DNA from: a virus
DNA length: 21,755 nucleotides
IMG/VR virus record: IMGVR_UViG_3300042882_000065
Span: 1 to 21,755 of that record
Direction: 5' to 3' (one strand)
In this document: positions 6,338 through 20,555 of the stretch, in pieces
Numbering within the stretch: the first letter of the stretch is position 1
Layout of the letters: every line of letters starts with the position of its first letter
The notes under the pieces: model-generated
Database searches by the model: none
Told to the model about the DNA's origin: nothing
Seen by the model: the letters and a program-made list of their open reading frames with translations, nothing else
Program-made: the position numbers and the translations under genes

Positions 6338-6964
6338 ATGAAAACACTCGATGCTTCTGCGTACGTGTACATTTGGTTTAGCCCTGACTGGATTCCGTTT
6401 TATGTCGGAATTGGCAAGACTTCTACGCGTTGGAAGCCGACATGCATCAAGACAAAAGATCGCAACACTTTGTGCTTCCGGATGGTGCAGAAGTATGGAC
6501 CGGAGAACATAAAAGTACAACGCTTTGTTCGGGTTTCTTGGGAAGATGCTTGCTCACTAGAAAAATCTTTAATTGCGCACTTTAAGCGCATTTCTGACGG
6601 AGGCACGCTTGCAAACTTTACAGACGGCGGAGAAGGCGTAACTCGACCAAGACAAGAAGTGTTGGAGGCAAAACGCCAGCGCTTACTTGACCCAACTAAT
6701 CCAATGCGTGAGTACCACAAAATACTCAACACTGACACTGAGATTAAAAAACGCCGCATACAGGGCATACAAAAAGCCCAAGATCGAAGGCGCGAAAAAA
6801 TGTCAACACCAGAGGCGCTCGCCCAACGCAAGGAGCGACTTAAGGTAACCATGAATTCACCAGAATTCAAGGCTCGTCGTGCCGAGTGGGACACGCCGGA
6901 ATACCGCGCCAAACTATCCGCTGCCAGAAAAGCATATTGGGACAACAAACGTAAAGTTTCTTGA
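6338..6964 (+). CDS. GIY-YIG (Seg-like) freestanding homing endonuclease
   Basis: This is the only plus-strand gene. The 208-residue protein has the GIY-YIG fold signature at the N-terminus: Y11-I12 in VYIW, Y22-V23-G24 in FYVGIG, Arg31 as the expected catalytic arginine, Glu75 in SLEKSLIAHF as the metal-binding glutamate, and a NFTDGGEG motif at residues 93-100 typical of T4 Seg-type enzymes. The C-terminal 90 residues are very basic (for example KKRRIQGIQKAQDRRREK) and probably bind DNA as helices. Such enzymes cut cognate sites in related phages and spread their own gene by repair. No ribosome-binding site is seen: the CTCCTCTC before the ATG is the complement of the minus-strand neighbour's site. 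The leftward late transcript would be antisense to it, so expression is likely early or independent. Confidence 0.88.
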   Translation: MKTLDASAYVYIWFSPDWIPFYVGIGKTSTRWKPTCIKTKDRNTLCFRMVQKYGPENIKVQRFVRVSWEDACSLEKSLIAHFKRISDGGTLANFTDGGEGVTRPRQEVLEAKRQRLLDPTNPMREYHKILNTDTEIKKRRIQGIQKAQDRRREKMSTPEALAQRKERLKVTMNSPEFKARRAEWDTPEYRAKLSAARKAYWDNKRKVS

Positions 6965-11082: not shown

Positions 11083-11730
11083 TTACATCACCTGTGTTCT
11101 AAGCTGCCCTGATCGATAACTGTCTTGTCGGTTCTTGCCATCACCCAGATTCTTGAGCGAGATCATGGATTGATTGAGTTCCTTATCCATCATCGCCACA
11201 ATATCCGGCTCCTGCTTCATCCACCTTGCCGCTTCAACCATCGCAGCGTTGAACAACACGCTGTCAAAATTGTCGCTAAGCCAAGTTGTAGAAGCAGTAA
11301 CAATGCTCTCCGGGTAGTAAAAGTAGTTCAGTTCTGCATTGAACGCCGCGCTGGGCGACGGCCCAAGCAGGAAAGACTGCACCTTTGGAGTGCCAGTCTG
11401 CGTTCCATACAAGGCATAGTACTTCGGCGTGCCCGTTACATTCGGGTTAGGAAACGACTCCCGAATAAAATTTACATCCTTGTTCAGCAAAAAACTGTAC
11501 TCATTCGCAGAGATAACAGCCAGCGAGAACGGCGTCAAAAAATCCACCGGCACTGGAATCAGCGGGTTGCTGACGCTAAGAACCAGTGTCGTAGTCTTGC
11601 GAAGGATCGGAAGCTGAACGGCGTTGTAGATCCTTTGCTCTGCCAATTTTGTGATAGTGGCAAAGTCAACAGTAGTGAATGCGTTTTCCGTCGCATCCTC
11701 TACAGCCGTTTTCAGTTCCGAGTAGTTCAC
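11083..11730 (-). CDS. Head-tail adaptor / head-completion protein (SU10-type adaptor-like)
   Basis: The gene starts with GTG at 11730, overlapping the upstream stop as GTGA. The 215-residue product has the N-terminal helix pattern YSELKTAVEDATEN, then LAEQRIYNAVQLPILRK, PVDFL.PFSLAVI, LLNKDVNFIRESFPNP and TGTPKYYALYG. I associate this pattern with phage adaptor proteins that form the ring between portal and tail. The C-terminal third is helical (FNAAMVEAARWMKQEPDIVAMMDKEL). It lies three genes downstream of a second adaptor-like gene, and small conserved proteins separate them. The family name is from memory. The adaptor role agrees with the neighbourhood. Confidence 0.78.
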   Translation of the reverse strand: MNYSELKTAVEDATENAFTTVDFATITKLAEQRIYNAVQLPILRKTTTLVLSVSNPLIPVPVDFLTPFSLAVISANEYSFLLNKDVNFIRESFPNPNVTGTPKYYALYGTQTGTPKVQSFLLGPSPSAAFNAELNYFYYPESIVTASTTWLSDNFDSVLFNAAMVEAARWMKQEPDIVAMMDKELNQSMISLKNLGDGKNRQDSYRSGQLRTQVM

Positions 11731-11918
11731 GCTATCGGCCCTCTAGACATGAAGCCCCGAGTAGCAGCACCCACACCGCGCATCTTGATGCCCGAAGTTT
11801 TGGTGGGCGGCGCAGGGTTCGCAGCAGTCTGCCCAACAACCATGCAACTTGTGTTTCTCAAGTTGTCAATTTCTTGAGGCAAGGTCTTTGGATTAGCAAC
11901 TTTGGTAACTTTTCCCAT
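11727..11918 (-). CDS. Small conserved protein ending in an RGVGAATRG tail
   Basis: This 63-residue protein follows the 49-residue gene by 3 bases and overlaps the adaptor start by 4 bases. The C-terminal KMRGVGAATRGFMSRGPIA is Gly/Arg-rich and resembles the ends of small proteins found in connector modules of uncultured phages. No fold, membrane segment or catalytic motif is visible. A packaged or connector-associated role is inferred only from position and basic, disordered-looking composition. Confidence 0.7.
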   Translation of the reverse strand: MGKVTKVANPKTLPQEIDNLRNTSCMVVGQTAANPAPPTKTSGIKMRGVGAATRGFMSRGPIA

Positions 11919-11921
11919 GTC

Positions 11922-12071
11922 TCACCCCTTCTGGTTCATCACACGGGCCATGTTCTTCCCGTACTTCAGTCGGTCTTCAGTGGTAGGGCCACCCTTCTTA
12001 AAGGATGGCTTCTTGCCAGGGTGCATGCGCTTTTCATGCTTCGCCACGGCCTTTTCAGGTGTCATCTTCAT
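11922..12071 (-). CDS. Small basic KKGG-motif protein (49 aa)
   Basis: I found this short gene by reading the gap between its neighbours. AAGGAG lies 5 bases before the ATG at 12071, and the TGA is at 11922. The product is strongly basic (MKMTPEKAVAKHEKRMHPGK, then FKKGGPTTEDRLKYGKNMAR). The pattern KKGG..(T/S)ED..KYG(K/R)N.AR.MNQ is one I recall repeatedly in connector modules of uncultured phages, so I am confident that it is a real gene. Its function is unknown. The KKGG element links it to the other (Y/F)AKGG proteins in this window. Confidence 0.82.
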   Translation of the reverse strand: MKMTPEKAVAKHEKRMHPGKKPSFKKGGPTTEDRLKYGKNMARVMNQKG

Positions 12072-12080
12072 GTGTGCTCC

Positions 12081-12464
12081 TTAAACTGTTACTGTAGCAA
12101 CATATCCATTGGCAACCAAGGAATTTGGTGTCACTCCACTCATCACGCCACTAGCACCCCCAACTGGTGCCCACCCCCACTCAATTACCCGACTACCTTC
12201 TCCGATTGTCCCACTAGAAGTTACTCCAGATGCGTACCAAGTATTCGTGTCAGGCCGAGGATCGCGGATAGCCTGCGGGTCAGCAACAGGGTACATGCCC
12301 AACTGAAGCTGCGGATGGTCCGGGCTCCAGCAATCCGGGCAAGAACGAATCTGAGTCTGCTTTGTTTTGACTACCTCGTTCTTCAACTTCTTCAAGTCAA
12401 AGCGGAAGCCACAACGATCGCAAAACCCAAAGGATTTTTTGCCGTTGGCAAAACGGTTGCTCAT
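12081..12464 (-). CDS. Zinc-ribbon protein of the phage connector module
   Basis: The 127-residue protein carries two CxxC knuckles, Cys15-Cys18 (CDRCGFRF) and Cys42-Cys45 (CPDCWSPDHPQ), which should bind one zinc ion. After this comes DPQAIRDPRPD, a motif I recall from a widespread conserved family in phage structural clusters. The last 55 residues are Gly/Ser/Val-rich and beta-like (EWGWAPVGGASG). It starts 1 base after the stop of the adaptor-like gene with little ribosome-binding sequence, so it depends on coupling. Zinc-ribbon proteins next to adaptors could be structural virion parts or transcription regulators; position favours the former. Confidence 0.75.
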   Translation of the reverse strand: MSNRFANGKKSFGFCDRCGFRFDLKKLKNEVVKTKQTQIRSCPDCWSPDHPQLQLGMYPVADPQAIRDPRPDTNTWYASGVTSSGTIGEGSRVIEWGWAPVGGASGVMSGVTPNSLVANGYVATVTV

Positions 12465-12465
12465 A

Positions 12466-13161
12466 CTAACTCACAAACATCTGTCTTGGAATTAACCGAA
12501 TAGCTGCCTTTTCGCGGTCCTCGGAACTAGCCAACTCCCAGTCTTGCTCGTACTGAGCCTTCAAAATTTGCATCCGATCCATCGCATTCGGGATCTTCAT
12601 GGACAGTTGATAAGCCAGCCCAGATATCAGCGCCGGCAGAAAACGGAACGGTATGTCTTGCGTATAAGTACCACCAGCCCCAGCGTCTTGAATCCTGCGA
12701 AGCCGCCAGTAGACAAACGTGTATGTCTGAGAATCATCAGGCGTAGGCCACACCGTAAACTCTGGCGCATCAGCTTGCCGATTGATCCACACCTGAATCG
12801 GCCTTGCTTGTTGCAACTTGTTGGGAATGGACGAGTAGGTAGAAACACTGATACGCGTGATGGTCAGATCAGTCTGAGTAGAGACATTGCCCGCGCCCGT
12901 GCGGATCACATGCTCAATCAAATCTACCGTGTCAGCCGGCAAGGTGTAAGTGTTTGTGCCAGGAGTCAAGACTTGTTGGCCTTGCTCCACGCACCATAAA
13001 TTCAAACCCCTGTTCGCCCAATCTGCCAGCAACAAATTTAACGACCTACGGGCTGTGCGCAGATCATAGCCAGTACGCAACTCCGTGCCGCAACGCTCGA
13101 ACGCTTCCTCGACGCATTCATTGAGGTCAAGATTGAACGTAGCTGCGCCGGATGTGGTCAT
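12466..13161 (-). CDS. Head-completion/adaptor protein (P22 gp4 / T7 gp11-like)
   Basis: The 231-residue protein contains DLNECVEEAFERCG, RRSLNLLLADWANRGLNLW and LTPGTNTYTLPADTVDLIEHV. This is the helix-turn-helix bundle and TYTLP.D pattern typical of gp4/gp11-type adaptors that attach below the portal. The middle has WPTPDD..TYTFVYWRLRRIQD, and the C-terminus is helical (AYQLSMKIPNAMDRMQILKAQYEQDWELA). The ATG at 13161 has no clear ribosome-binding site, and the 26 bases before it carry an imperfect duplication of the end of the upstream gene. The assignment comes from motif memory and gene order, with the second adaptor-type gene 0.7 kb downstream. Confidence 0.78.
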   Translation of the reverse strand: MTTSGAATFNLDLNECVEEAFERCGTELRTGYDLRTARRSLNLLLADWANRGLNLWCVEQGQQVLTPGTNTYTLPADTVDLIEHVIRTGAGNVSTQTDLTITRISVSTYSSIPNKLQQARPIQVWINRQADAPEFTVWPTPDDSQTYTFVYWRLRRIQDAGAGGTYTQDIPFRFLPALISGLAYQLSMKIPNAMDRMQILKAQYEQDWELASSEDREKAAIRLIPRQMFVS

Positions 13162-13162
13162 G

Positions 13163-13201
13163 ATTTACTTTGCTATCAACGCAACATTTACTTTGCTGTC
13201 A
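13163..13201 (-). repeat. 23-bp-offset direct repeat at a gene junction
   Basis: Sixteen bases (plus strand atttactttgctRtca) occur at 13163-13178 and again at 13186-13201 with one difference. The second copy includes the end of the KGG gene, so the intergenic part looks like a duplicated gene end. Confidence 0.7.
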
Positions 13202-13418
13202 TCGCAGAACGCTTGAAGGCTTTGGCAGTAGGAGCGCCGGGAGAACCCGGCTTGCGCATTTTTTCACCCGATCCAGCGGCAATCCGCTTGCGCTTGGCGT
13301 TGATGCGGTCATAAAGCCCAACTTCTCCACCTTTTGCATACTCGGTAAAGTCTGTGTTGTCACGGCGCTGCTTTGTCAAACCTTTACGGATAGCGCCCAT
13401 GCCCCTACTGGCGCGCAT
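13188..13418 (-). CDS. Small basic YAKGG-motif protein (76 aa)
   Basis: The start at 13418 overlaps the preceding stop as TGATG. The protein is very basic and contains DFTEYAKGGEV, LYDRINAKRKRIAAGSGEKM and APTAKAFKRSA. I recall AKRKRI..GSGEKMRKPG as a strongly conserved block in uncultured phages, always among structural genes. It has no membrane segment and looks largely helical/disordered. Possible roles are DNA binding inside the capsid or assembly of the connector. These are speculative. Confidence 0.8.
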   Translation of the reverse strand: MRASRGMGAIRKGLTKQRRDNTDFTEYAKGGEVGLYDRINAKRKRIAAGSGEKMRKPGSPGAPTAKAFKRSAMTAK

Positions 13419-13813
13419 CAGATGTACTTCCCCTTGGTCTTACCACGCTGGGCACAGCCGTCAATCCCCTTGGACTTGACAACACCACCTTTTGCAAAAG
13501 ACGGCTCACCGTAGGGGGTCATTGGCAGGCGACGGCGCGGGTTTACCATGCCACTGTTTGACTGCATAGGAAGTTGCGGAGGAGCCTCTTCTACAAAATT
13601 AGCAGGGAGCATTTCTTCAACACGCGGAGGCATTATTGGAGAATCATCCGGGTTAAGCCCGCTATCAAAGCGGCGCGTCGAACGCGGTGCCGTCGGTGCC
13701 GATGGAGACTTCATTTGTGCAATAGCCATTTGCATTTCTTGTGGTGTCAAGTTTCTTGATGGCGCTCTATTTTGCAACTTTGTAGACAAAGACTTTGGAT
13801 CAATAGCAGGCAT
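13418..13813 (-). CDS. FAKGG-motif protein with C-terminal DGCAQRGKTKG tag (131 aa)
   Basis: A GGAG site lies 7 bases before the ATG at 13813. The first 90 residues are Pro/Ser/Arg-rich and probably disordered, with one helix near LTPQEMQMAIAQMK. The last 25 residues carry FAKGGVVKSKGIDGCAQRG followed by KTKG. This C-terminal tag recurs, with small changes, at the ends of unrelated proteins in phage structural modules. It is also shared in reduced form by the gene immediately upstream (YAKGGGVESKG..KTKG). Its function is unknown. The tag could direct packaging, processing or interaction with a common virion partner. Confidence 0.78.
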   Translation of the reverse strand: MPAIDPKSLSTKLQNRAPSRNLTPQEMQMAIAQMKSPSAPTAPRSTRRFDSGLNPDDSPIMPPRVEEMLPANFVEEAPPQLPMQSNSGMVNPRRRLPMTPYGEPSFAKGGVVKSKGIDGCAQRGKTKGKYI

Positions 13814-13823
13814 TTTTATCTCC

Positions 13824-14162
13824 TTAGCACTTGCCCCCGCGCATCATCTTGACCATCTTGCCCTTGGTCTTGCCCTTGGACTCGACGCCGCCGCCCTTGG
13901 CATAAGCCATGCCGCCGCCCATCATCTTCTTGCCCTTGGCTTCGGCCATCTCGTGCTTGAGCATGGACTTCGGAGCGCCCTTCTTCTTCATGAAGGCCAC
14001 TTCCTTCTTCATCATTTCCTTGGACTCTTTCACATCGCCTCCTTCAGCATGGGCTTTCGGCCCAACAAACTTCTCGGCAACACTACGGGGGATGCCAACG
14101 CCCTTGGGATCTTTCAACGCCGCGTACATCAGCCTACGCTGAGCTTCAGACTTGACCGGCAT
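13824..14162 (-). CDS. Lys-rich YAKGG-motif protein (112 aa)
   Basis: The ATG at 14162 overlaps the holin-candidate stop as TAATG. The N-terminus MPVKSEAQRRLMYAALKDP, followed by GIPRSVAEKFVG, is typical of a small phage family I recall as DUF3008-like. The middle is a charged helix rich in Lys, Met and Glu (ESKEMMKKEVAFMKKKGAPK). The C-terminus is Gly/Lys-rich with YAKGGGVESKGKTKGKMV and ends MMRGGKC. The net charge is strongly positive. It would suit DNA binding, such as a minor head-internal protein, but there is no direct evidence for that. Confidence 0.78.
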   Translation of the reverse strand: MPVKSEAQRRLMYAALKDPKGVGIPRSVAEKFVGPKAHAEGGDVKESKEMMKKEVAFMKKKGAPKSMLKHEMAEAKGKKMMGGGMAYAKGGGVESKGKTKGKMVKMMRGGKC

Positions 14163-14539
14163 TACTCTTTGTCTTCCGTCTTGCTTTTCTCATTGTGCAA
14201 ACGTATCCACTTGTACAACAAAAACCCAATCTGAAGGATCAAGTAGACAAGCGTTGCCCACATGATGACTTCATTGATCTGCATCCCCGCTGCTGCCGCG
14301 CCGCTTACCGCAACAGGCGGTAACCCTTTCATGGTGGCATCAACAACATCAGCCTTGTGTTGAAAATTCATAGCTGACTGCGAATTTGATTGAACTACTT
14401 CTTTCACTGCAGACGCTCCCGCTAAAGGCAAAGCAACCAGCAATGCTGTTAATTTTGTAACACGAACAACAAGTCGAGTCCAGTATGTTGACTGCTTTAA
14501 CTTTTCAACTTCAACAGTCTTATCGCAGAGTTTTTCCAT
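14162..14539 (-). CDS. Holin candidate (T7 gp17.5-like C-terminus)
   Basis: I take the ATG at 14539 (125 residues); an ATG at 14545 is possible, and both lie in the last codons of the upstream membrane gene. There are two hydrophobic segments. The first is at about residues 29-46 (KLTALLVALPLAGASAV); the second is at about 88-110 (INEVIMWATLVYLILQIGF), followed by LLYKWIR and a highly charged end. The second segment plus basic tail closely resembles T7-family holins, which carry NE..YVAAIAYTVVQIG before a charged terminus. Such proteins form holes that release or depolarise for endolysin action. The endolysin lies 6 kb away, so this is a split lysis arrangement. It could instead be an accessory membrane protein. 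Confidence 0.6.
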   Translation of the reverse strand: MEKLCDKTVEVEKLKQSTYWTRLVVRVTKLTALLVALPLAGASAVKEVVQSNSQSAMNFQHKADVVDATMKGLPPVAVSGAAAAGMQINEVIMWATLVYLILQIGFLLYKWIRLHNEKSKTEDKE

Positions 14540-14954
14540 GTTCATCTTTCACATGAAGAAGGCAAGCCAATGTTGAAGCAACCAAAATTGGCGGTATCAC
14601 AAGCCAGTAGTTAGCCATGCCTGTTTGCTCACAGATGCCTTCCCACGGGTTTGCGGTTTTTGACACCGGATTTTCAATTCCTATGGCTAACCTGCATCCA
14701 ACAACTAGCGCATCTTCATACATGGCCCACGCCACCGCGAACCACACTGGAACCATGAACTTGTTCTTTGGAAGCAACCACAAGATCACTCCATACAAAA
14801 CAAGTCCTTTGACACCTTGCATTACATAGAACAGTGCTCTTTCAATACGCACAGGTTCTGTGTACTGTTGCGACAAAATTGTTGGCATGTAGTGAACTGC
14901 TGCCGTTAGTAGCAGTACAACTAAAGTTATACCAACAATTTTGTTGAACTTCAC
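14520..14954 (-). CDS. Four-helix membrane protein of unknown function
   Basis: It starts with GTG at 14954, overlapping the 39-residue gene's stop (GTGA), so the two are translationally coupled. The 144 residues contain about four hydrophobic helices, near 6-25 (IVGITLVVLLLTAAVHY), 40-62 (LFYVMQGVKGLVLYGVILWLL), 67-85 (FMVPVWFAVAWAMYEDALV) and 116-137 (NYWLVIPPILVASTLACLL). Cys90 and Cys109 flank a loop after helix 3. I recognise no family. Being immediately before a holin candidate, it could modulate lysis (antiholin-like) or act at the membrane during infection, for example in exclusion. These are inferences from adjacency only. Confidence 0.72.
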   Translation of the reverse strand: MKFNKIVGITLVVLLLTAAVHYMPTILSQQYTEPVRIERALFYVMQGVKGLVLYGVILWLLPKNKFMVPVWFAVAWAMYEDALVVGCRLAIGIENPVSKTANPWEGICEQTGMANYWLVIPPILVASTLACLLHVKDEHGKTLR

Positions 14955-15084: not shown

Positions 15085-15336
15085 TTAGCAGTTCCACGCT
15101 TTCAATGATAGCGCTTTACGAGTTGGCCTACCCTTGTCATCCTTCATCGGCCCAGGCATACCGCCCATGCGAGCGCAAAATGACTTGCGCCGCTTGGCGT
15201 CCTTCTCCGTTTTTGGATGCGGAGCAGGAGGCTTCAGGTTCATGCCCTGTGCTTTGGCCGAAGCACGCCCTTTGGCGTTCAATCCGCCCGTCTTACTTTG
15301 ACCCTCTTTCCGGGTCCAAGCGGGAGACTTGGGCAT
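15085..15336 (-). CDS. DUF6321-type small conserved protein
   Basis: The 83-residue protein starts 1 base after the preceding stop (TGACATG). It has the block SPAWTRKEGQSKTGGLNAKGRAS, then KAQGMNLKPPAP, RRKSFCARMGGMPGPMKDD and GRPTRKALSLKAWNC. This matches the DUF6321 family of phages as I remember it; the family has no known function. Two Cys residues, one in SFCARM and one at the C-terminus, are spaced like the family's conserved ones. It is basic and probably a structural-module accessory protein, since homologues are found among head/neck genes. Confidence 0.85.
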   Translation of the reverse strand: MPKSPAWTRKEGQSKTGGLNAKGRASAKAQGMNLKPPAPHPKTEKDAKRRKSFCARMGGMPGPMKDDKGRPTRKALSLKAWNC

Positions 15337-18088: not shown

Positions 18089-18568
18089 TCAGTTCTGGAA
18101 CGTGGTCGGGTTCTGAGCACCGCTAGGATCGCGCTGGACGTACACAACCGTCACAATGAACCGGCCTTGCGTGGTAGCCAACGTGCCAATGGCATTGCGA
18201 ATAAAGATTGTCGTATCTGCCGCGGTGGAAGTCTGCCATGCCAACTGTGTAGCAGCAGTAGCCGTACCACGGAAACGCCCGCCAGCAGTCGTTGCCACAC
18301 CCGCCATCAACTCCGAACCACCAGAAGTGGTGCCCACAGAAATCGTGAACGTAGACGTAGCGGTGGGGATAACAATCTGATCCACCACGATGTCATAGAT
18401 CTGCGAGCCCGCAGGGATGATGAGCGCCGACACATCCACGTTACCAATAGCGGCAGACACATTGCCCGAGTCATACGACTGAGCCAGAGTCACCAAGCCC
18501 GTGTTACGCCCCGGAGGGTAGCGGTTCGTGCCTACACGAACCGGACCAGACATAGTAGACCAACCCAT
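18089..18568 (-). CDS. Small virion-type beta protein (159 aa)
   Basis: GAGG lies 7 bases before the ATG at 18568; a second ATG follows after five codons. The protein starts MGWSTMSGPVRVGTNRYPPG and is rich in Thr, Ala, Gly and Val, with repeating beta strands (SQIYDIVVDQIVIPTATSTF; FIVTVVYVQRDP) and no Cys. The composition is like small head-decoration or fibre-base proteins, and the neighbours (capsid protein to one side, 844-residue fibre-like protein to the other) agree with that. It has its own candidate promoter and structured leader, and a terminator follows, so it may be expressed separately and strongly. The exact role is not known. Confidence 0.72.
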   Translation of the reverse strand: MGWSTMSGPVRVGTNRYPPGRNTGLVTLAQSYDSGNVSAAIGNVDVSALIIPAGSQIYDIVVDQIVIPTATSTFTISVGTTSGGSELMAGVATTAGGRFRGTATAATQLAWQTSTAADTTIFIRNAIGTLATTQGRFIVTVVYVQRDPSGAQNPTTFQN

Positions 18569-18654: not shown

Positions 18655-18683
18655 AGGGTAGCACAGGGGAATGGGGGAGTCAA
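18655..18683 (-). promoter_or_regulatory. Candidate sigma70 promoter for the 159-aa gene
   Basis: TTGACT (18678-18683) is followed at 17 bp by TACCCT (18655-18660), with TGC directly before the -10 as an extended -10. The -35 overlaps the endonuclease stop codon. The -10 has only 3 of 6 consensus bases, so this is moderate support. Confidence 0.45.
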
Positions 18684-19516
18684 GCGTAAACAAACACCAA
18701 ACCAGCAAACTTGCCCTTGGTAATAGGCTTGCCCGCAACAAGCGCCCGCCGCAGGGTAGGCATGGTCATCTGATAGTGCGCAAGCACAGCAGTCAAGCTG
18801 TCAAACACTTGACCCGATGTCCGCTCTACCACGCTCTTTCGCATCTTCTGCTTGGACTCTTCGGTGTGTTTCTTGCCAAGGAAGTTTTGGTTGCCTAATG
18901 TGCGCTGGCGAATAGCCTCACGCTCGGCATCAGTGCGCTTGTAGCCAAGAGCGTTCTGGTTGCCTTTCAGTGCTTCCGACATTTTCTGCCGCGTCTCCTC
19001 TGACGGTATGAAAGCACCGCCTCGACCTTCGGCTATGGCTTGATTGACCTTGGCACTAATTTTTGCTTTGGTTTCTTCTGTGTGCTGCTTGCCTACACGG
19101 GGGTGGTTATTGGGGTCTTCAGCGTAAAACGCTTTGAGCGTGGCGGAGATTGCGGCTTTTTGTTCTTCAGCTATTGGAACTTTGTACTTTGGGTTGCTTG
19201 CACCAAAACGTCCTCGCATAGGCGCGTCTGGTGAACTGCCAGCGTTATAGCAATAAGCTTTACCGTAGTGCTCAGCCAACCAACGTGCCTCAGCCTCCCA
19301 AAGTTTGGTTGCATTCTCAACCACTTCTTGAACTTCAAACTTAAAACAGTCCTCTCCATACTTGTTCCAAGAGGCCTGGAGGTGGCGACAGTGATGCACG
19401 CCCTTGCGCAAACGAGAGCGGTGTGTGCGAAACCGTTCGCGTGTGTCAGTGGTGCTTCCGACGTAAAACTTGCCGTTTACGACATTGCGGATCTTGTAGA
19501 TGACTGGCTCTTTCAT
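18680..19516 (-). CDS. GIY-YIG endonuclease with NUMOD3 repeats (homing endonuclease)
   Basis: I choose the ATG at 19516 over 19537 because GGAG sits 5-8 bases upstream and the predicted transcript starts near 19541; this gives 278 residues. The nuclease domain is at 4-100: VIYKIRNVVNGKFYVGS holds the two GIY-YIG strands (Y7, Y18-V19-G20), Arg28 and His32 follow in RERFRTH, and Glu76 lies in EARWLAEHY. Three NUMOD3-type DNA-binding motifs follow near 145-157 (QHTEETKAKISA), 171-188 (SEETRQKMSEALKGN) and 216-230 (KHTEESKQKMRKSV). A NUMOD1/IENR1-like helix-turn-helix occupies about 235-276. It sits next to the capsid gene, without an intron that I can see, so it is probably a freestanding homing enzyme. 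It is unrelated in its C-terminus to the other endonuclease in this window. Confidence 0.92.
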   Translation of the reverse strand: MKEPVIYKIRNVVNGKFYVGSTTDTRERFRTHRSRLRKGVHHCRHLQASWNKYGEDCFKFEVQEVVENATKLWEAEARWLAEHYGKAYCYNAGSSPDAPMRGRFGASNPKYKVPIAEEQKAAISATLKAFYAEDPNNHPRVGKQHTEETKAKISAKVNQAIAEGRGGAFIPSEETRQKMSEALKGNQNALGYKRTDAEREAIRQRTLGNQNFLGKKHTEESKQKMRKSVVERTSGQVFDSLTAVLAHYQMTMPTLRRALVAGKPITKGKFAGLVFVYA

Positions 19517-19547
19517 GGGATCTCCGTTACACAACATAGGAGCCGTA

Positions 19548-19643: not shown

Positions 19644-20555
19644 TTAGGAGCTTCCGGGGGAGCCGAACATTCCCAAAGGATCAGAACACCCGAAAGAATA
19701 CCTCTCACGCGCCTTGTACCTGTTGTTACCGGTATCAAAGTCAGCGTCCATGCTAGTGGCAAGCGGCATACGGACAAAGTGCTTCAAGCCGTTGGGAACG
19801 TCGGTCTTGATGAACCAGGCGTTCGGATCGGTCAGGAAGTTATTGATGGTATAGCCTTCCGGGATGGAGCCGTTGTTAACAATGGCGTTGATGTCATTGT
19901 CGGTGGTTCCAACTCGGAGTTGGGTGCCAAGCAGGCGGGTTGCAACGAAGCTGAGGTTTTGGGGAACGATCAACTTGCGCGGCTTTGCGGCGACCAGCAG
20001 GCCCCGTTCGTCGGTCCAGGCAGCGATCTGGATCACAGCCGCTTCGAGGGACGTTTCGTTCAGGTCTGCCGCCGTAGCGGGCCGGTTAGAGTTGAAGCCG
20101 CCAGACACCAGCGGGTGTTGCGTCGAGAACAGAGGCTGACCGTCGCCATACAGAGCAAGCGAAGAGAAGCCGTTGTTCAGGACTGCCGCCGCCTTGATCT
20201 GCTTGGTGTACGCCATAGCCCGGGCGAGGGCCTTGGTATACCGCTGAGACAGGCTGTCGTACAGGTTGTCTTCCATCGCCTCTTCGGTGATAGAAAAACC
20301 CAGCGCAATGGTCTCGTGGTTATAACGAGCGGTCCAGGCTTCTTGCGCATTGTCATACGCAATAGCTGCACCTTCGTTCTTCACCGGAGCGGCGGAGAAG
20401 CCAGCAAGTTTGGTTTCCTCTTCAAACGAGCGCTCAGAGGTCTCCGTATCGTAGATCTCCTTGTGCTGTTCGCCGTAGCGCGCATACTCCAAGCCAAACA
20501 AAGCATTCAAGCCTGGCAGAAGTTCTTTGAGTAGTTGAGCACGTCCAATAGCCAT
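19644..20555 (-). CDS. Major capsid protein
   Basis: GGAG lies 6 bases before the ATG at 20555. The 303-residue product contains EETKLAGFSAAPVKNEGAAI, FSITEEAMEDNLYDSL, ARAMAYTKQIKAAAVLNNGF and DGQPLFSTQHPLVSGG, followed by AAVIQIAAWTDERG, KPRKLIVPQNLSF and NAWFIKTDVPNGLKHF. This is the HK97-fold capsid pattern that I associate with the Mu gpT-like major head subunit group, including the characteristic G.PLFS..HP loop. It forms the icosahedral shell. It follows the decoration-like gene directly and is closed by a hairpin terminator, as expected for a highly expressed gene. No scaffolding protein or protease is in this window; those would lie upstream. Confidence 0.92.
   Translation of the reverse strand: MAIGRAQLLKELLPGLNALFGLEYARYGEQHKEIYDTETSERSFEEETKLAGFSAAPVKNEGAAIAYDNAQEAWTARYNHETIALGFSITEEAMEDNLYDSLSQRYTKALARAMAYTKQIKAAAVLNNGFSSLALYGDGQPLFSTQHPLVSGGFNSNRPATAADLNETSLEAAVIQIAAWTDERGLLVAAKPRKLIVPQNLSFVATRLLGTQLRVGTTDNDINAIVNNGSIPEGYTINNFLTDPNAWFIKTDVPNGLKHFVRMPLATSMDADFDTGNNRYKARERYSFGCSDPLGMFGSPGSS

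Follow-up and report, generated by a model that had tools for sequence, protein, structure and literature searches.

A candidate C-terminal targeting tag on hypervariable small proteins encoded between the capsid and adaptor genes of an aquatic phage lineage

Cargo-loading peptides of encapsulins are short and C-terminal and sort unrelated proteins into an HK97-fold shell, and in phage T4 the targeting element of the internal proteins is N-terminal and is removed by the head protease. The T4 internal proteins have been described as a highly diverse set with only a conserved targeting sequence in common (PMC3012670). Alt of T4 is an ADP-ribosyltransferase that is packaged in the head and injected, and the polyvalent proteins of phages and conjugative elements, which hold 2 to 15 domains in one chain and have ADP-ribosyltransferase domains among them, are predicted to be packaged or transferred (PMC5512222). 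Here we describe a C-terminal peptide element, termed the tag, that was found by following up the virus record IMGVR_UViG_3300042882_000065 of IMG/VR. The whole analysed stretch of this record comprises 21,755 bases and is called the window; nearly all of its likely genes lie on the minus strand. An earlier note on the window had pointed out a (Y/F)A(K/N)GG motif in five of its proteins. This motif leads to a longer element, which stands at the chain end, is common to protein bodies without detectable likeness and is confined to one locus.

All five copies of the motif are present on the minus strand: FKKGG at residue 24 of 49 in the protein 11922-12071, YAKGG at residue 27 of 76 in 13188-13418, FAKGG at residue 106 of 131 in 13418-13813, YAKGG at residue 87 of 112 in 13824-14162, and YANGG (1019-1033) at residue 151 of 250 in 731-1483. 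The recurrence is real, since [YF][AK][KN]GG occurs 5 times in the 31 window open reading frames (ORFs) accepted as genes, versus a mean of 0.057 and a maximum of 2 in 1000 per-protein shuffles. Likewise real is the tail GG.V.SKG ... KTKG that had been noticed in two of the proteins, as GKTKGK occurs twice there and in 0 of 1000 shuffles. That the proteins are basic is true for four of them (isoelectric point (pI) 10.1-11.3), but 731-1483 is acidic (pI 5.4). The motif itself, although it recurs, is not the conserved unit and forms only the front of a longer element. The tag was taken to be longer than the motif because the relatives of the 112- and 131-residue proteins share sequence beyond the GG. 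In full it reads (Y/F/M)(A/K)xGGxV-SASxRADG(C/I)AxRGKTKGR(M/F)V-COOH, and the best conserved part behind the motif is DGxAxRGKTKGR together with the chain end.

A common tag, one of the possibilities raised in the earlier note, is a good fit for two of the five proteins. Its standard form, FAKGGVVKSKGIDGCAQRGKTKGKYI-COOH (13421-13498, minus strand), ends the 131-residue protein, and a variant form with a Cys-terminal extension, YAKGGGVESKGKTKGKMVKMMRGGKC-COOH (13827-13904, minus strand), ends the 112-residue protein. For these two the reading as a tag fits because the element is C-terminal, common to many unrelated bodies and restricted to one locus among virion genes. It does not extend to 11922-12071 and 13188-13418, which combine the GG-containing stretch with other modules, nor to 731-1483, which belongs to another family. 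The body of the 131-residue protein has no PHROG or Pfam match up to an expectation value (E) of 1, and neither have 11922-12071, 731-1483 and 11727-11918. Sequence search placed the 131-residue protein in 4 viral loci, in one of them (L084) via the tag alone. Relatives of the 112-residue protein are encoded by 348 viral contig stretches, some perhaps found via the tag only, and 80 of these stretches were kept for analysis. In its predicted model, which has low confidence throughout, helices lie between residues 6 and 75, and the tag is without predicted structure.

When viral contigs were scanned at the DNA level for the core D-G-x-A-x-x-G-(K/R)-T-K-G-(K/R), with (Y/F)AxGG not required, at least 120 stretches were obtained, and a search with one whole tagged protein gave at least 477 confirmed stretches, with the match confined to the tagged end in most of the 80 listed ones. 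With the pattern relaxed slightly, the core was found in 392 ORFs at 207 loci; L001 and L082 are excluded from the counts as duplicates, while L138, with the core in mid-protein and in a record without profile match, is regarded as chance and yet kept. Loci do not equal independent genomes in these counts, the window and L002 being identical in their tagged proteins and L086 and L211 sharing the same gene. The median tagged protein is 116 residues long; the fronts of their bodies are uncertain, as ORF starts were set by rule.

The place of the core relative to the chain end is usually fixed. Exactly two residues separate it from the stop in 264 of the 391 complete ORFs, and 9-14 residues do so in 105, 94 of which are Cys-terminal; the other 22 end elsewhere. 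Positions that the search pattern leaves free are conserved as well: in 214 distinct standard tags (a count that excludes the six loci L086 and L207-L211), position -16 is R in 174, -12 is C or I in 208, -9 is R or K in 195, and -1 is V, I, L or C in 199. An alignment of the tag (A2, 61 rows) consists of the window tag and 60 of 70 tags. Of 309 distinct stretches, 134 have the form [YF][AK]xGG no more than 25 residues ahead of the core, versus a mean of 2.4 and a maximum of 7 in 200 shuffles; with M or W also allowed in first place, this rises to 209 of 309 (mean 6.8 and maximum 15, again in 200 shuffles). Judged by these alignments and counts, the motif of the earlier note is a hinge ahead of the tag.

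Each locus encodes 1-6 small basic tagged proteins, whose bodies vary from genome to genome. The 356 bodies of at least 30 residues fall into 110 clusters at E 1e-3, with 81 singletons, which is a rough family count in that remote or low-complexity likeness is missed and the largest cluster (127) is visibly chained from several. Among 99 cluster representatives, the last 60 body residues are 14% identical, versus 67% for the tags, a figure that is inflated as the core was the search pattern. Of the 24 clusters that have at least two standard members, 22 show greater likeness among the tags than among the bodies. Two further checks lessen the bias that comes from searching by the core of the tag. 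A body domain that was searched without its tag (A3, built from tagged proteins) was found at 25 loci, several of them near-identical, and the tag stands at the end in 24; on contigs outside the query, six of the 25 having supplied A3, it does so in 18 of 19. Furthermore, regular-expression sorting found another tagged protein outside the 112-residue family at 62 of the 80 loci with tagged ORFs from the searches with the 112- and 131-residue proteins. The cluster of L209, a probably chimeric contig described below, was excluded from profile A1. Iterative local profiles of the small proteins drifted together via the shared tail, and their counts (571 genes for DUF6321, 548 for the 49-residue protein, 480 for p3, 477 for p4 and 397 for p2) were not used.

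The 110 cluster representatives were also compared with family libraries. At E 0.01 they match 11 PHROG families with one member each, eight of them DUF6321-like families that are also matched by the window protein 15085-15336, and at E 0.05 they match 12 Pfam families with one member each, of which only DUF6321 is trusted. Two matches are hints only: positions 2390-2504 of phrog_7348 (named endolysin, 2564 positions) match L043:2946-3593 at E 6.6e-5, and in L193:2661-3227 residues 1-25 match phrog_33179. Two other features were seen in the bodies (e.g. of L168, L146, L150 and L166). In 23 bodies of 11 clusters the N-terminus is a basic piece that has an aromatic residue and GG, a count made without a control, and a (V/G/A/S)(Y/N)PEx(Y/F) stretch occurs in 6 bodies of 4 clusters, where 0.05 are expected by shuffling.

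To place the tagged genes, landmark genes were taken from the window, all on the minus strand: the major capsid protein (19644-20555), a conserved capsid-side protein (p159, 18089-18568) whose Pag-Yong1 counterpart is annotated as minor capsid protein, the first head-tail adaptor (12466-13161; SU10_adaptor, PF24175), a zinc-ribbon-like protein (12081-12464; weak Pfam match, E 0.13) and a second adaptor-like virion protein (11083-11730; phrog_2941, virion structural protein). Across the 207 loci, the first adaptor gene is present in 175 and the capsid gene in 85. The position count comprises 374 tagged genes at 201 loci. At the 59 loci with both the capsid and the first adaptor gene, the interval between these two holds 110 of 116 tagged genes. 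Measured against single landmarks, tagged genes are downstream of the capsid gene in 160 of 160 cases, upstream of the first adaptor in 305 of 321 and upstream of the second in 230 of 230. A co-occurrence across genomes near capsid and adaptor genes, which the earlier note had suggested looking for, does exist. The tag profile matched 25 of 26 longer records, and in the 18 with several matches (records of 29-87 kilobases (kb)) these all lie within 4.7 kb of each other; the 26 are part of the longer records, and those of L034, L039, L098, L104, L176 and L208, which are of comparable size, were outside this search. The profile also matched 8 of 12 further records (picked via a relation to the 731-1483 family, to the body domain or to a whole tagged protein), 7 of them several times and always within 2.8 kb, so that the copies lie within 4.7 kb in all 25 multi-copy records. 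No tag was found in the other four of these 12 records, G026, G029, G031 and G037 (the record of L315). The first three also lack capsid and adaptor genes and are therefore fragments in this respect.

The tag is, as far as seen in these scans, viral and lineage-bound, and the gene content suggests that the phage lineage is short-tailed. In 257 gigabases of prokaryotic genomes, 4 stretches were found with a pattern (stop-like codon at the end, last two codons constrained) that is stricter than the viral one, for which reason the two scans can be compared only loosely. The same phage gene order is seen in L207 and L208, and L210 has at least one landmark gene. L209 is a Patulibacter metagenome contig with the tag at the end in frame behind an ORF that by eye resembles an acyltransferase, probably a chimeric assembly. 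Among named phages, tblastn with the 131-residue protein and with a 29-residue tag matched only MinM2, Pag-Yong1 and Pra-JY27, weakly (E 0.03 and 0.1), and the 112-residue protein matched only 201phi2-1 (two records, E 0.2). A 38-residue tag peptide gave no match to named phages, and at the limits used neither did L207:4798-5214, L043:2946-3593, an 825-residue protein of L315 or 731-1483. MinM2, Pag-Yong1 and Pra-JY27 have one matching place each, which in Pag-Yong1 and MinM2 is between the capsid and adaptor genes. These three records (OQ594354, OL906435 and PP438419) share the same length of 65,014 bases and the same match scores and may be one phage deposited under three names and hosts. 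A related capsid gene occurs in 21 named records, of which these three and the capsid regions of seven others were inspected. The core was found in 0 of the seven (DSL-LC04, HTVC023P, HTVC027P, CRP-901, 023Pt_psg01, vB_Af_QDWS535 and ct7L0027), and the tag is thus not part of the capsid type as such. Other glycine-rich ends stand at the corresponding locus, namely YSRGGGAAVRGMGFKGVF in L378:16698-17081 (HTVC023P gp51) and YKMGGSACK in L377:8016-8243 (DSL-LC04).

With its usually fixed place at the chain end, a flexible-looking hinge, unrelated bodies, several clients per genome and one locus among virion genes, the element has the anatomy of a sorting signal. We consider it an evenly balanced proposition that it is a C-terminal targeting tag which loads hypervariable cargo into the particle. 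One conserved virion partner on the capsid, portal or connector side would bind the tag and so bring the bodies, as cargo, into the particle. Once injected, they may target the host or host defences, with ADP-ribosyltransferase activity a possibility for one of them, and new cargo would be gained by placing a new body ahead of hinge and tag. In a broader form, which we put forward tentatively and with some doubt, this would be a plug-in system with a C-terminal peptide code for a single conserved virion partner: hinge and tag would suffice to have any protein ahead of them packaged and injected, and related aquatic phages would use other C-terminal codes at the same locus, such as YSRGGGAAVRGMGFKGVF in HTVC023P.

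Several points speak against targeting. The tag identity is inflated by the use of the core as search pattern, and in 2 of the 24 clusters, DUF6321 among them, the bodies are more alike than the tags. Nearly all of the bodies, as judged from the 110 representatives, are without a PHROG or Pfam family match, and the core is missing from the seven other capsid regions. The holin gene of the window (14162-14545) also lies between the capsid and adaptor genes, so position alone is no proof of a virion role. The likeness of one body family to ADP-ribosyltransferases, which is discussed below, is weak. Lastly, DNA binding could be all that this very basic tag does.

The last point leads to a first rival, namely that the element is a nucleic-acid-binding tail, by which small basic proteins coat or condense phage DNA in packaging or after entry, without a specific protein partner. 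Every tagged protein of more than 40 residues has a pI higher than 9, and K, R and G abound in the tag. However, the strictness of the non-basic positions (D-G-C/I-A, T and the hydrophobic last residues; D, G, A and T are fixed by the search pattern) and the usually fixed distance to the end exceed what charge would need, and 5.6% of the bodies have a pI below 6, and we regard a nucleic-acid-binding tail as unlikely. As a second alternative, the tag could dock assembly factors that help to build the capsid-adaptor junction and then leave or stay as minor structural parts. The tight placement between capsid and adaptor genes and the wide spread of the 112-residue family agree with this, but assembly parts would not usually vary so much in body and copy number from one genome to the next, and with a tag that is missing from all seven other named relatives inspected we give this explanation a slim chance. 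A third proposal, which is compatible with a targeting tag, takes the hinge as a protease site at which tag or body is released in capsid maturation. The large protein of L315, which holds a relative of a tagged body, has GGxAHMA(D/E)GG linkers that part its segments and could be of this kind; the stretch between GG and core, by contrast, varies from 2 to 19 residues, and no sign of a processing site was seen in the small motif proteins, where protease consensus sites were not searched for. Cleavage at the hinge seems distinctly improbable to us. Finally, a DNA recombination seam or a remnant of tandem duplication without peptide function would agree with several copies per locus, with bodies that differ freely ahead of the hinge and with tags that are slightly more alike within a locus than between loci (0.721 versus 0.667, or 72% versus 67%, reached by 0 of 1000 permutations), but it is hardly credible and was rejected on codon use, as identical tag residues within a locus use different codons in 521 of 1017 comparisons (73 loci, M and W excluded) and the stop codon is mostly at a fixed place.

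The tag is accordingly kept as a peptide rather than as DNA. Its higher likeness within a locus fits a genome-specific partner, and it fits common descent as well.

One tagged body family (L207, L212-L218, L302-L324 and others; not in the window) gives a lead as to what the bodies might do. A model of this family, built from 24 sequences, has a mean predicted local distance difference test score of 60.7, with core blocks mostly at 68-84. In VIA-align, 28 chains reach a Z of 2, and the 22 rows listed are KptA/Tpt1 phosphotransferases, DarT, the toxins TreTu and RhsP2, AvrPphF and CC0527 at Z 2.7-4.9, which we take to be members of the ADP-ribosyltransferase superfamily. The best match has Z 4.9 and a root mean square deviation of 3.5 over 82 residues, whereas models that lack a clear match usually score 7 to 8. 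Foldseek with the model of this family (the L316 family) found nothing that reached E 0.001 in either the PDB or the viral libraries: the top PDB match has E 0.7, and the five top viral matches, at E 1.5e-3 to 1.5e-2, are phage proteins of 569-1096 residues, four named ParB-like and one uncharacterised. A search of solved structures by sequence matched none, with one row at E 1.4. In an alignment of 14 sequences of the body family, R, E, Y, K, R and V are invariant, a set that was not assigned to a known catalytic class. The body of the L316 family may thus resemble ADP-ribosyltransferase folds, weakly, and this likeness is only a lead, given the low scores and the lack of a Foldseek match at E 0.001. 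In L315, the 825-residue protein (on the 7.9-kb record G037) contains a relative of that domain and by eye adjoins a terminase-like ORF; no Pfam family was found in the two L315 proteins. Another C-terminal element, THAHHL(E/D)(I/V)EERPL, mostly behind GG, was seen in proteins of 316-825 residues at 10 of 15 loci (L359-L370, e.g. L359:3354-5828), as if other phages use other end codes.

Two of the remaining motif proteins carry the hinge ahead of other modules. In the basic 76-residue protein (13188-13418, minus strand), the YAKGG hinge (13326-13340) is followed by a C-terminal module (13191-13319) that matches the phrog_16028 profile at E 3.9e-22 over residues 34-76. Such modules have counterparts, at E up to 1, in 112 records of named phages, including cyanophages and pelagiphages. 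In Synechococcus phage S-B28, a 49-residue protein with the module (L085:3989-4138) is annotated as ribonucleotide reductase A subunit, likely a misannotation, and similar names stand in other matched records. In the basic 49-residue protein of the window (11922-12071, minus strand), the FKKGG hinge (11988-12002) is followed by the module TTEDRLKYGKNMARVMNQKG (11925-11987). The place of this protein between the zinc-ribbon-like gene and the next small gene is conserved; of the 123 distinct proteins found there, 45 were viewed by eye, and 43 keep an ending like TTEDRLKYGKNMARVMNQKG while their fronts vary. Relatives of its front half bear the tag instead in L112 and L145 (by eye). The protein 15085-15336 (minus strand) passes the gathering score of DUF6321 (PF19846) with 86.6 bits versus a cut-off of 28.5, and relatives elsewhere carry the tag behind the DUF6321 domain (L110, L124, L141, L153, L160, L191 and L207; confirmed by Pfam for one of the 110 representatives, the rest by eye). 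From such exchanges, the hinge looks like a joint at which C-terminal modules are swapped. The fifth motif protein, 731-1483 on the minus strand, differs: YAxGG is kept in 20 of the 20 relatives viewed (34 were found), inside a longer conserved tail without the core of the tag, and by this alignment its family is separate from the tag. Elsewhere in the window, 18680-19537 (minus strand) and 6338-6964 (on the opposite, plus strand) resemble GIY-YIG homing endonucleases by eye.

If the tag does sort proteins into particles, it would offer a sequence handle for injected, early-acting proteins of uncultured phages, and would allow some hundred unannotated body types to be listed together. For the problem that the capsid targeting sequence solves in T4, it would be a separate answer. 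Testing is feasible, as three deposited cyanophage records (perhaps one phage) carry one tag copy each. In the literature on the motif strings, Pag-Yong1, DUF6321 and C-terminal signals, from which most subscription papers lay outside the scope, no description of the tag was found, and within the same scope DUF6321 is not named in any paper found.

Compared with the known systems, the tagged proteins are like the T4 internal proteins in that hypervariable bodies share a single conserved element (14% versus 67% identity, the tag value being inflated by the search pattern), a likeness of description, as the sequences of the two elements were not compared by a tool. They are unlike them in that the element is C-terminal (264 of 391 end two residues past the core and 105 end 9-14 past it) and in that the capsid is of another family. 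Encapsulins, whose loading peptides are also C-terminal, differ in being cellular compartments without injection. With polyvalent proteins there is the common point that one tagged body domain is also found in a large protein adjoining a terminase-like ORF (L315); unlike them, the tagged proteins are separate and small (median 116 residues) and have a common tag, and only the untagged L315 relative is long and looks multidomain. At the locus itself there is a resemblance to the proteins of DUF6321 and phrog_16028, which are likewise small basic modules, and DUF6321 even occurs ahead of the tag, but the sequences of both differ from it.

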